Shown: one piece after another, positions 50,996 to 60,407 of the stretch
How the letters are laid out: each line of letters starts with the position of its first letter
Position numbering within the stretch: position 1 is the first letter of the stretch
NCBI GenBank assembly: GCA_017881055.1
Contig: JADGRF010000117.1
Span: 1 to 64,000 of the forward strand
Source: Sandaracinaceae bacterium
GTDB lineage: Bacteria; Myxococcota_A; Polyangia; Polyangiales; JAFGIB01
Direction of reading: 5' to 3'
DNA: 64,000 bases
Made by a program: the position numbers and the translations under genes
Notes under the pieces: model-generated
The model's input: the letters and a program-made list of their open reading frames with translations, nothing else
Databases searched by the model: none
What the model was told of the DNA's origin: nothing

Positions 50996-51523
50996 GTGAG
51001 CGACAGCAAGCCCTCGATACCGGCACAGCCCATCGCTCCGCGCGCGAACGTCAGCATCTGCTTCGTGTGTCTCGGCAACATCTGCCGCTCGCCCACGGCC
51101 GAGGGTGTGATGCTCCAGCTCGTGGCCGATCGAGGGCTTACCGAGCACATCCGGATCGACAGCGCAGGCACGGGCGCCTATCACGTGGGCGAGCCGGCAG
51201 ACGCACGCAGCGCCGCGGCCGCCAAGCAGAAGGGTGTGCACCTGCCGAGTCGCGCGCGCCTGTTCGTGGCCGACGATCTCGAGACGTTCGACTACGTGGT
51301 CGCGATGGATTCGAAAAACTTCGCGCACATCGAGCGCATGGCGCGCAGCCGCGCGCAGCTCGAGAAGGTGTCGCTGTTGCGCAGCTTCTCGGTCGACGGC
51401 GGCCCACTCGACGTACCCGACCCGTACTACGCCGACAACTTCGACGAGGTCTTCGAGATCTGCCGCAGCGGCTGCGAAGGCCTGCTCGACCATATCGTGC
51501 GGCGTCACGGCCTGCCCGGATGA
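50996..51523 (+). CDS. Low-molecular-weight protein-tyrosine-phosphatase family protein
   Basis: The 175-residue protein has the LMW-PTP loop CLGNICRSPTAEGV (Cys and Arg of C-x5-R) and the general-acid aspartate in DVPDPYYADNFDEVFE. It has a 20-residue N-terminal extension. Bacterial LMW-PTPs act on phosphotyrosine or on sugar phosphates. The start is GTG 50996, one base after the preceding stop. Its stop overlaps the fructosamine-kinase-like start (ATGA). That pairing is recurrent in bacteria, where the phosphatase has been linked to ribulosamine-5-phosphate removal. Confidence 0.9.
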   Translation: MSDSKPSIPAQPIAPRANVSICFVCLGNICRSPTAEGVMLQLVADRGLTEHIRIDSAGTGAYHVGEPADARSAAAAKQKGVHLPSRARLFVADDLETFDYVVAMDSKNFAHIERMARSRAQLEKVSLLRSFSVDGGPLDVPDPYYADNFDEVFEICRSGCEGLLDHIVRRHGLPG

Positions 51524-52389
51524 ACCCGCAGCTGCGCAAAAAGCTCGCCGCTGCGCTCGGCAGCACGGTGGCGCATGCGCAGCAAGTCTCCGGCGGTGAC
51601 ATCAACGACGCGTTCGACGTGAAGCTGCACGACGGCCGACGTGTGCTCGTGAAGACGCACGCGCGCGCACCCGCGCGCATGTACGCGTGCGAGGCCGCGG
51701 GCTTGCAGCTGCTGGGCGAGCCGGGCAGCCTGCGCGTGCCGGCCGTGCTCGCGCACAGCGAAGCCGACGCTACCGGTCCCGCGTACCTTGCGCTGGAGCT
51801 GATCGAGGCTCGTGTGCGACGCGCCGACTTCGACGAGACGCTCGGCCGCGGGCTTGCGGCACTGCATCGCGCGCTGCTGCCCAGCTTCGGTCTCGATCAC
51901 GACAATTACATCGCGATCCTTCCGCAAGACAACGCTCCGTGCGCGAGCTTCCGCGAGTTCTACGCGCAGCGGCGCCTGCTGCCGATGCTGAAGCTAGCGA
52001 CGGACCGCGGTCGCGCCACGGGTGCGCTGCGCGGTGGCGTCGAGCGTGTGTGCGCGCGGCTGGCAACGTGGATCGCCAACGACGAACCGCCGTCGCGCCT
52101 GCACGGTGATCTGTGGGGCGGCAACCTGCTCGTCGACGACCAAGGCGCGCCGTGCCTGATCGACCCTGCGGTGTACGGCGGAGCACGCGAGCTCGATCTC
52201 GCGATGATGCGCCTATTCGGTGGCTTCTCGGAACGCGTGTTTTCAGCTTACGACGAAGCGTATCCGCTCGCTACAGATCACGAAGAGCGCGTGGCGCTGT
52301 ACCAGCTCTACCCCGTGCTCGTGCACGTGAGCCTGTTCGGCGGCGGCTACGTCGCGCAAGCCGAGCGCTTGCTGCGGAGTCTCATCTAA
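51520..52389 (+). CDS. Fructosamine/ribulosamine-3-kinase family protein
   Basis: The 289-residue kinase has the APH-like fold with the FN3K motifs VSGGDINDAFDVKLHDGRRV (glycine-rich loop, with VLVKTH following), HGDLWGGNLLVDD (catalytic loop) and LIDPAVYGGARELDLAMMRLFGGF (metal-binding D-P-A-V-Y-G). FN3K homologues phosphorylate C3 of ketosamines formed by glycation, which then fall off proteins. Translational coupling to an LMW-PTP fits a deglycation pair. The substrate (fructosamine or ribulosamine) cannot be told from sequence. ATG 51520 overlaps the phosphatase stop. The 3' end overlaps the next gene by four bases. Confidence 0.88.
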   Translation: MNPQLRKKLAAALGSTVAHAQQVSGGDINDAFDVKLHDGRRVLVKTHARAPARMYACEAAGLQLLGEPGSLRVPAVLAHSEADATGPAYLALELIEARVRRADFDETLGRGLAALHRALLPSFGLDHDNYIAILPQDNAPCASFREFYAQRRLLPMLKLATDRGRATGALRGGVERVCARLATWIANDEPPSRLHGDLWGGNLLVDDQGAPCLIDPAVYGGARELDLAMMRLFGGFSERVFSAYDEAYPLATDHEERVALYQLYPVLVHVSLFGGGYVAQAERLLRSLI

Positions 52390-54932
52390 TTAGCAGGCGC
52401 AGAGCTCTCGCGCGCACCGTCGTCGAGCTTGTGGCGGCGGAGCTTGTCGAGCAGCGTCGTGCGCGGCAGGCCGAGCAGACGCGCGGCCTCACTCTTGTTG
52501 CCCGCGGCACGCAAGAGTGCGTGCTCCAGAGCGCGGCGCTCGACTTCCTCCAACGTGCCGATCAGCGGGTTGTCGCCGAGCAGCGCGGCAGCACCCGTAT
52601 CCAGCATCAAGTCGCTCACCACAACGCGCTCCCCGCGTGCATGAGCCAGCGCGCGCTCGACGACGCGCGTGAGCTCGGCAAGGTTGTCGGGCCAGGCGTA
52701 CTTGGCCAGCGCTGCGAGCGCGTCAGGATCGAAGCCGATCGGGTCACGCCCGAGCAAGCGACACGCGCGATCGAGCGCAAGGAGCACGTGCGACTCGATG
52801 TCCTCCGGGCACTCGCGCAGCGGAGGCACACGCAGCGACACAGGCGACAAGCGCGCCGCGAGATCGGCATCGAAGTGGCCGCTGCCAGCCAACGCATCGA
52901 GATCGACGCGCGTGCCGAGCACGACCCGTGCGAGCACGGGATACGACTCGCCACCGTCGACGGTACGGCCACCACGCGAAGCAAGCGCGACTGCCAGCTG
53001 ACGCTGGGCGTCGAGCGAGAGCGCAGCCACATCGCCGAGCAGCAGCGTGCCGGCGCCGGCGATGCGCAGCGCACCGGCGTGACGATTGTCCCCGTGCGCG
53101 CCGCCGAACAGCACCGCAGCGCTCTCGTCCGCCCGCAACGCAGCACACGCCACGGCTACGAACGGCTCCGCGCTGCGACCGGACTCCGTGTGCAACAGAC
53201 GCGCGAGCGCTTCGATCGGCAGACCCGGCTCGCCGAGCAAGCAGACCGGGACCTCCAGCGAGGCCAAGCTGCGCACGCGCTCGGTCAGCGCGCGCATCGC
53301 AGGGCTGTACGCGATCAGCGGTGAAGCCTCCGCGCGAATGTTGCGGCCACCGTGCAGCAGCTCCACGTCCGAGCGCAAGCGCGACAGCTCGTCCTCGAGC
53401 CGCTCGCCTTGCGCCTGTGCGCGTTGCTGGGCCATCAGTAGCTCGTGCGCGCGTAGCTCGGTGCGACCCTGCGCGGCGAAGATCGACAGCAGCGCAGACA
53501 GATAGCGTGCGTGCTCGCGCAGCGCGCCCAGCTCTTCCAAGGTCAAGAGCGAGCGACGGTTGCCGCGCGGCACGATCAACGCGCCTTCGAGCTCACCGTC
53601 GGTCACCAGAGGCAGCACGCACAGCACGTCGTGCTCGATCAGCGCTTCGATCAATGGACGCAGCGGCGGGTTGCGAACGATCTGCGCTTCGAGCGGCGCA
53701 CGCACGATGATCTCGGCTGGATTCTCTCGTAGACGCTGGGCGATCGCAGCGGGCAGCGGACGCTCGGCGAGATGGGCCTCGCCGGCAGCGTCGATGCGCG
53801 CCTCGAACGCCGGATCGAATCCATACAGAAGCGGCACGCTGTTCGGCGAGCCGCTGGCCTTGCGCATGCAGCCGAGGACGGCTCGCGCCAACCCAGGCAG
53901 CGTGTGAATACCCGCCGTGGTCTCCGGGAACGTGCGCGTGGCATCGAGCAGCCGACCACCCGCAGGCGCGAGCGTGCGGTGCAAAAGAGGCGTGAACGCT
54001 TGGAAGAGCGCCAGACCCAAGCACAGGGCCGCAGCGACCCAAAGCGCGAACGCGAGCGGCGTCGCGGGCACGTAGGCGCGCAGCGGCATGGCAGCCAGCG
54101 CAACCGCGCTCGTGGCGAGCACGGCCGAGACGATCTCGCGCAGCGTGGGTCCTGCAGCGAGACGACGACGCGGATCGATCAACCAGACGTGACCGAGATA
54201 CAAACAGACAGCTGCGACGCTGCCAGAGACGCGCAGCAACGACGCAGCGATCGCGAGCGAGAACACCCGGCCCACCACGAGCGTTGCGGCGACCAGCATC
54301 GCGGGCGCCAGCGCGAGCACGGCCCAGCCGTTCGACGCGAGCGCTTCCGGCGTGCTGCCGAAACGACGACGCGATAGGCGCAGCCCGAGCGCGACCAGCA
54401 CGCTGAGCGCCGCGTAGCCAGCAGCTGCATCGCTGCAGCGGGCAGGTACGAGCAGCGGCGAACCCAAAGGCGCGAACACCGGACCGAGCGCGAGCGCCGA
54501 GAGCAATGCGCAGCCGAGGCCGAGCGCGTACGGCAGCACGCGTGCCGCACGTCGGTAGCGAGCGGGGACGATCACGTCCGGCACGGTCAGCGCGAGATCG
54601 AGCACCAGCGCGGCCAGCGAGGCCAGGGCGATGGCTTCGGCGATGTCGACCGAGATGCGCAGCGGCTCGTTGCTCAGCAGGCGCAAGAGCGACCCGCCCG
54701 CGGCCAGACCGAGATAGCCCGCCCGCCGCGCGCCGCGCTCCTGATTGGGATCCCGCTGGCCGAGCAGCGCACACCCGAGAAGCGTTGCGAGCGCCGCGAT
54801 CACTTCGCCGAGCCGATCGAGGCCGGCGCCGGTATGCACGCCGGTCGTCGATGAGACCGCGGATGAGACGTCCGCCACCAAATAGAGGATCAGCGCAGGG
54901 CCGAGGAACGGGAATATGGCGGCGCGGCGCAA
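52386..54932 (-). CDS. Membrane-anchored NtrC-like protein with degenerate AAA+ domain and Fis-type HTH
   Basis: The 848-residue protein has about nine membrane helices in residues 1-330, a GAF-like region (about 345-490), a coiled-coil (about 500-535), an AAA+ domain (about 550-780) and a Fis-type HTH (EHALLRAAGNKSEAARLLGL, about 800-820). It is laid out like a sigma54 enhancer-binding protein but its motifs are lost. Walker A reads GEPGLPIE instead of GETGTGKE, the GAFTGA loop is absent, and Walker B reads AGTLLLGD. It is unlikely to remodel sigma54 polymerase. It may be a ligand-sensing, DNA-binding membrane regulator. The start is ATG 54932. It is divergent from ligA. Confidence 0.75.
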   Translation of the reverse strand: MRRAAIFPFLGPALILYLVADVSSAVSSTTGVHTGAGLDRLGEVIAALATLLGCALLGQRDPNQERGARRAGYLGLAAGGSLLRLLSNEPLRISVDIAEAIALASLAALVLDLALTVPDVIVPARYRRAARVLPYALGLGCALLSALALGPVFAPLGSPLLVPARCSDAAAGYAALSVLVALGLRLSRRRFGSTPEALASNGWAVLALAPAMLVAATLVVGRVFSLAIAASLLRVSGSVAAVCLYLGHVWLIDPRRRLAAGPTLREIVSAVLATSAVALAAMPLRAYVPATPLAFALWVAAALCLGLALFQAFTPLLHRTLAPAGGRLLDATRTFPETTAGIHTLPGLARAVLGCMRKASGSPNSVPLLYGFDPAFEARIDAAGEAHLAERPLPAAIAQRLRENPAEIIVRAPLEAQIVRNPPLRPLIEALIEHDVLCVLPLVTDGELEGALIVPRGNRRSLLTLEELGALREHARYLSALLSIFAAQGRTELRAHELLMAQQRAQAQGERLEDELSRLRSDVELLHGGRNIRAEASPLIAYSPAMRALTERVRSLASLEVPVCLLGEPGLPIEALARLLHTESGRSAEPFVAVACAALRADESAAVLFGGAHGDNRHAGALRIAGAGTLLLGDVAALSLDAQRQLAVALASRGGRTVDGGESYPVLARVVLGTRVDLDALAGSGHFDADLAARLSPVSLRVPPLRECPEDIESHVLLALDRACRLLGRDPIGFDPDALAALAKYAWPDNLAELTRVVERALAHARGERVVVSDLMLDTGAAALLGDNPLIGTLEEVERRALEHALLRAAGNKSEAARLLGLPRTTLLDKLRRHKLDDGARESSAPAN

Positions 54933-54963
54933 GGCGGTTTCCTTGAAGGACCCGGTAATGTAA

Positions 54964-60407
<5,444 letters not shown>

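Follow-up and report, generated by a model that had tools for sequence, protein, structure and literature searches.

A predicted membrane-bound relative of the sigma-54 activators with a degenerate AAA+ domain in myxobacteria

The activators of sigma-54-dependent transcription (bEBPs) possess an AAA+ domain of the Sigma54_activat fold, which is marked by the GAFTGA motif, the Walker A lysine, and the Asp-Glu pair of Walker B. It has been reported that TyrR, DhaR, and HupR are paralogues of these proteins that have lost the contact with sigma-54 and work with sigma-70, and that VpsR of Vibrio cholerae and YplP of Bacillus subtilis, in which GAFTGA is defective, are probably not sigma-54 dependent (PMC3162934). 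In the Escherichia coli sequences, TyrR keeps both the Walker A lysine (GDTGTGKD) and Walker B (LLDEI), and DhaR keeps the lysine (GEEGVGKA) with a damaged Walker B; this lysine is present in both proteins, but is not known as a requirement of the GAFTGA-less kind. Both TyrR and DhaR are soluble. NifA, a cytosolic and ATP-dependent sigma-54 activator with intact motifs, is comprised of GAF, AAA+, and Fis domains. With regard to membrane-associated systems, PrsK (TIGR02916) is a histidine kinase of the PEP-CTERM system that combines membrane helices with a GAF domain, and PrsR (TIGR02915) is its partner. Here, we describe a gene in a window of 64,000 nucleotides from a Sandaracinaceae bacterium (contig JADGRF010000117.1).

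Domain architecture and relation to known regulators

The open reading frame, strand, and coordinates given by the first-pass annotation, which was made from the sequence alone, were found as stated (Table 1), and the TTG start matches the start position of homologues (ATG in L003 and TTG in L002). The encoded chain runs from ten membrane helices through a GAF domain, a coiled coil, an AAA+ domain of the sigma-54 activator type, and its lid to a Fis-type helix-turn-helix (HTH) domain. The order of sensor, AAA+, and Fis HTH proposed in that annotation is upheld by Pfam, which detects Sigma54_activat at residues 540-700 (E 2.7e-23), AAA_lid_14 at 706-777, and HTH_8 at 793-833 (E 2e-13). Its description of the N-terminus also holds for the membrane helices and the GAF-like region, except that the AlphaFold2 models give ten helices instead of about nine. 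Pfam recognises the GAF domain in 11 of 22 relatives (best E 1.4e-4), and gives no GAF match for the focal protein itself. By prediction only, membrane helices and a DNA-binding domain (HTH_8) are found in a single chain.

Table 1. Coordinates of the focal gene, its domains and motif remnants, and the adjoining short element
Feature	Position	Strand	Residues	Basis or remark
Whole focal gene	52386..54932	(-)		848 aa, TTG start
Ten predicted membrane helices, N and C ends inside	53970..54914	(-)	7-321	AlphaFold2 models, hydropathy, positive-inside charges
GAF domain	53553..53957	(-)	326-460	Pfam GAF in relatives, alpha/beta pattern in model, NifA match
Long helix, likely coiled-coil signalling linker	53349..53540	(-)	465-528	Model
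Pseudo-AAA+ core, sigma-54 activator type	52830..53315	(-)	540-701	Pfam, NtrC1 alignment, model, Foldseek
Walker A remnant GEPGLPIE, without lysine	53211..53234	(-)	567-574	GxxxxGK in 0/54 relatives
Site of deleted L1/GAFTGA loop, LFGGAHGDNRHAG	53073..53111	(-)	608-620	GAFT in 0/54 relatives; deletion of like kind in E. coli TyrR
Walker B remnant AGTLLLGDV (Asp lost, Glu to Asp)	53028..53054	(-)	627-635	Alignment, 54 rows
AAA lid domain	52602..52826	(-)	703-777	Pfam AAA_lid_14, model
Fis-type HTH	52425..52556	(-)	793-836	Pfam HTH_8 E 2e-13
Conserved short element CAGTGTTACATTRCC, gap between focal gene and ligA	54954..54968	.		Single copy in genome

The full-length AlphaFold2 model, built from 18 sequences, has a mean pLDDT of 79 and reproduces the ten membrane helices, a GAF domain with its alpha/beta pattern, a 64-residue helix, the AAA core with its lid, and the HTH. 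The structure prediction that the first-pass annotation had suggested as a check gave an AAA+ fold at a pLDDT of about 90 despite the loss of the motifs, and in Foldseek this part groups with NtrX, NtrC1, ZraR, FlrC, LuxO, and FleQ. A model of the membrane part alone reached a pLDDT of 84 and a pTM of 0.80; a fold search of the PDB with this part returned no confident match, the resemblance to seven-helix receptors being weak. Because Lys and Arg are more abundant in the inner than in the outer loops of all 24 sequences compared, the soluble part should be cytoplasmic, and we infer that the protein is located in the membrane.

The soluble domain order of the focal protein is the same as that of NifA, which is also its best match in a plasmid collection (spanning focal residues 342-790). 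A weak similarity of the N-terminal part to PrsK was detected in 4 of 22 relatives (best E 0.013) and is only suggestive of homology. Among the NCBIfam models, PrsR matches the AAA region best, at 157 bits against a cut-off of 503, but neither the histidine kinase nor the receiver domain of the PrsK/PrsR pair occurs in the focal protein. VpsR and YplP are alike by description, as NtrC-like proteins with a defective GAFTGA; neither is known to have a ten-helix membrane sensor.

Loss of the motor motifs

In the alignment with NtrC1, Walker A changes from GESGVGKE to GEPGLPIE and Walker B from LFLDEI to LLLGDV, the first acid being replaced by Gly and the second by Asp, and a deletion has removed the L1/GAFTGA stretch (LFG-GAHGDNRHAG in the focal protein, LFGYEKGAFTGAVSSKEG in NtrC1). 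The motif readings of the first-pass annotation (GEPGLPIE, no GAFTGA, and AGTLLLGD) are thereby confirmed. Neither the P-loop lysine (GxxxxGK) nor GAFT was found in any of 54 aligned relatives, and the loss in the focal protein is therefore more than chance. The lysine position is occupied by a hydrophobic residue or Pro in nearly all relatives and by Arg in two, and the second acidic position of Walker B is Asp in 47 of the 54 rows. Two further losses had not been recorded in the first-pass annotation: the sensor I Asn (Arg in 36/54) and the first arginine finger (Asp in 35/54). Despite these changes in sequence, the altered pocket may still bind ATP or another nucleotide. Close homologues with intact motifs, which the first-pass annotation had named as the sign of a local misreading, were sought across the order and the phylum by means of the membrane-GAF part, and none was present among the aligned members.

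Besides rpoN, the genome to which the window belongs encodes about 25 ordinary activators whose motifs are intact. Three further activator-like proteins without GAFTGA (L209, L211, and L212, on contigs C159, C142, and C240) keep the Walker A lysine, so the focal protein is the only one in this genome that lacks the lysine as well as GAFTGA. By eye, L211 has an FHA-like N-terminus, and L209 begins with a receiver domain and has no Fis HTH.

The focal protein thus has the features of the GAFTGA-less NtrC family, namely a bEBP-derived AAA+ domain from which GAFTGA has been lost, as in TyrR, DhaR, and (by description) HupR of Rhodobacter capsulatus, together with an intact Fis-type HTH. Its deletion is of the same kind and in the same place as that of TyrR. 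In contrast to TyrR and DhaR, however, the focal protein retains none of the three motifs and has gained a membrane part of ten helices. The earlier proposal of a new class of one-component regulator was too strong, since loss of GAFTGA and work with sigma-70 have been published for TyrR, DhaR, and HupR (PMC3162934). Three elements are new: one and the same protein has lost the P-loop lysine and Walker B in addition to GAFTGA, its membrane sensor has ten helices, and two sublineages have subsequently lost the HTH. Total loss of the motor together with a membrane sensor is unusual, and the open-access literature searched contained no case in which loss of the P-loop lysine is combined with a membrane sensor of ten helices.

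Distribution, selection, and loss of the HTH

Full-length homologues (34-58% identity) are present in most relatives. Among 116 genomes belonging to the order (taken to be Polyangiales), 88 are matched by a profile built solely from the membrane-GAF part, at one place per genome except for two genomes with a second, partial match; when 237 genomes were sampled across the phylum, no match came from another order. In a scan of contigs, the named records with family members were all myxobacterial and other matches covered the common AAA-HTH part only, while matches in viral contigs were all HTH-sized.

Selection was assessed as dN/dS by domain in five pairs, of which the two close ones weigh most, the synonymous distances of the distant pairs being near saturation. 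No structured domain reaches a ratio of 0.65. The ratio ranges from 0.10 to 0.35 in the dead AAA core of four pairs (0.49 in the fifth) and from 0 to 0.37 in the HTH, with values of 0.10 and 0, respectively, in the closest pair; only the short linker preceding the HTH seems free of constraint. The dead AAA domain is under purifying selection, and the protein is in use. Given the spread of the family, the uniform absence of intact motifs, and this selection, the reading frame is not a misreading.

Homologues without the HTH comprise the large f12 family (13-Mb genomes included), one f8 genome, and part of f6. They retain the membrane part, GAF, dead AAA, and lid, and no separate HTH reading frame was found adjoining them. 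In a tree made without the HTH region (a quick method with SH-aLRT support only), two HTH changes are required, each forced by well-supported branches. Since the AAA part descends from an HTH-bearing family, both changes are read as losses: two sublineages dropped the HTH independently, and DNA binding therefore cannot be the sole shared role. This loss is a result that goes beyond the first-pass annotation.

Possible roles and gene neighbourhood

That the focal protein is bound to the membrane and lacks the residues needed to activate sigma-54 with ATP, as had been proposed, has strong support from its sequence, the fold model, conservation across the family, and the lack of any member with intact motifs; transcription as its only role, on the other hand, is weakened by the two HTH losses. 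Our main reading, to which we assign a probability of roughly 0.6, is that the protein is a one-component regulator tethered to the membrane, which descends from a NifA-like (GAF, AAA+, Fis) sigma-54 activator and is itself independent of sigma-54 and ATP. It is based on the family-wide loss of the Walker A lysine, GAFTGA, and the Walker B Asp-Glu pair, the well-modelled AAA+ fold matched to NtrX, NtrC1, ZraR, and FlrC, the purifying selection in the dead AAA core and HTH, the rpoN and intact activators in the same genome, the ten-helix topology with positive-inside charges, and the precedent of TyrR and DhaR, which work with sigma-70 after GAFTGA loss (PMC3162934).

Briefly, a membrane signal, or a ligand in the GAF pocket, would alter the coiled coil, and the dead AAA+ domain would act as a rigid oligomerisation adapter instead of a motor. 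The pair of HTH domains would bind DNA near the membrane and repress or aid a sigma-70-type polymerase without ATP or sigma-54; such tethering would require the target DNA to come to the membrane. In the HTH-less sublineages, the same receptor would have to work via protein contacts. The protein probably responds to something at the membrane and regulates its target genes without consuming ATP.

The double loss of the HTH, with the membrane, GAF, and dead AAA parts kept, also suits a protein that is mainly a membrane receptor or scaffold acting through protein contacts (e.g., with kinases or live activators), its HTH being secondary or inherited. In addition, HTH-less members still match the bEBP lid and many terminate in Arg/Lys-rich tails, and Ser/Thr kinase genes lie within 1 kb of the focal gene in about 12 distinct genomes against about 2 expected (an estimate from kinase density), an excess that is weaker than these figures suggest because the genomes are related to each other. 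We nevertheless regard this as unlikely, since the HTH is better conserved than any other domain in the relatives that carry it (82-100% identity in five pairs) and the kinase link, which is a lead only, is not general and partly reflects shared ancestry. Less probable still is that the dead AAA+ pocket might bind c-di-GMP or another nucleotide and thereby switch DNA binding, by analogy with FleQ and related regulators, in which c-di-GMP is bound close to Walker A. FleQ and VfmH were reported to bind c-di-GMP via the AAA+ domain, where Arg residues lie close to Walker A (PMC10714721), and the focal gene often has a gene for an MshEN-domain protein nearby; however, the Walker A region is mostly hydrophobic and differs from family to family, and the lysine is not replaced by a conserved Arg.

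A pseudogene, an assembly error, or a drifting non-functional remnant might be imagined in large genomes that hold many regulators, and the more so in a draft of 341 contigs, but the frame is open over its full length in dozens of genomes, mostly as a single copy, and every structured domain is under purifying selection, which leaves this with almost no weight; it is refuted in practice by conservation. Next to the regulator reading, it is possible, and proposed here tentatively, that an order-wide, mostly single-copy receptor family arose from a dead sigma-54 activator, shedding the ATP motor first and then, in two sublineages independently, the HTH, to leave a membrane-GAF-pseudo-AAA receptor that would signal via protein contacts.

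The family offers a clear natural series from motor protein to non-catalytic signalling part, through intact activators, GAFTGA-less proteins with a live P-loop, the focal family, and its HTH-less members. A bEBP-derived membrane-tethered regulator that is order-wide in myxobacteria and usually single-copy points to a common signal, and the label "sigma-54-dependent regulator", if taken from the Pfam match, would be wrong for this family.

As for the neighbourhood, CAGTGTTACATTRCC is exact in two of three genomes of the genus and diverged in the third, and is probably a promoter sequence. It was rejected as a repeated binding site on account of its single copy, and a search of the genome for a repeated candidate binding site of the HTH found none. 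The ligA gene is the divergent neighbour in several families, and the gene for the MshEN-domain protein lies near the focal gene in 14 loci; both are read as inherited gene order and were rejected as operon partners. In the window, the latter protein has 1128 aa (57024-60407, (-)); its MshEN domain (E 3.7e-11) is N-terminal, and its long middle part is of low complexity.

Most of the adjacent Ser/Thr kinases belong to two ortholog groups. The first comprises AAA_16-bearing kinases of about 1100-1400 aa, encoded downstream on the same strand in HTH-less relatives (L165, L166, L177, L178, and L183), and is absent from the family of the window. The second (L027, L028, L172, L174, L180, L014, L037, and L182) varies in orientation, and its full-length copies have a common C-terminal domain without a Pfam match. 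On the other side of the focal gene, a low-molecular-weight phosphatase gene followed by a fructosamine kinase gene (50996-52389, (+)) is convergent on it, and this pair recurs close to the focal gene in several relatives.
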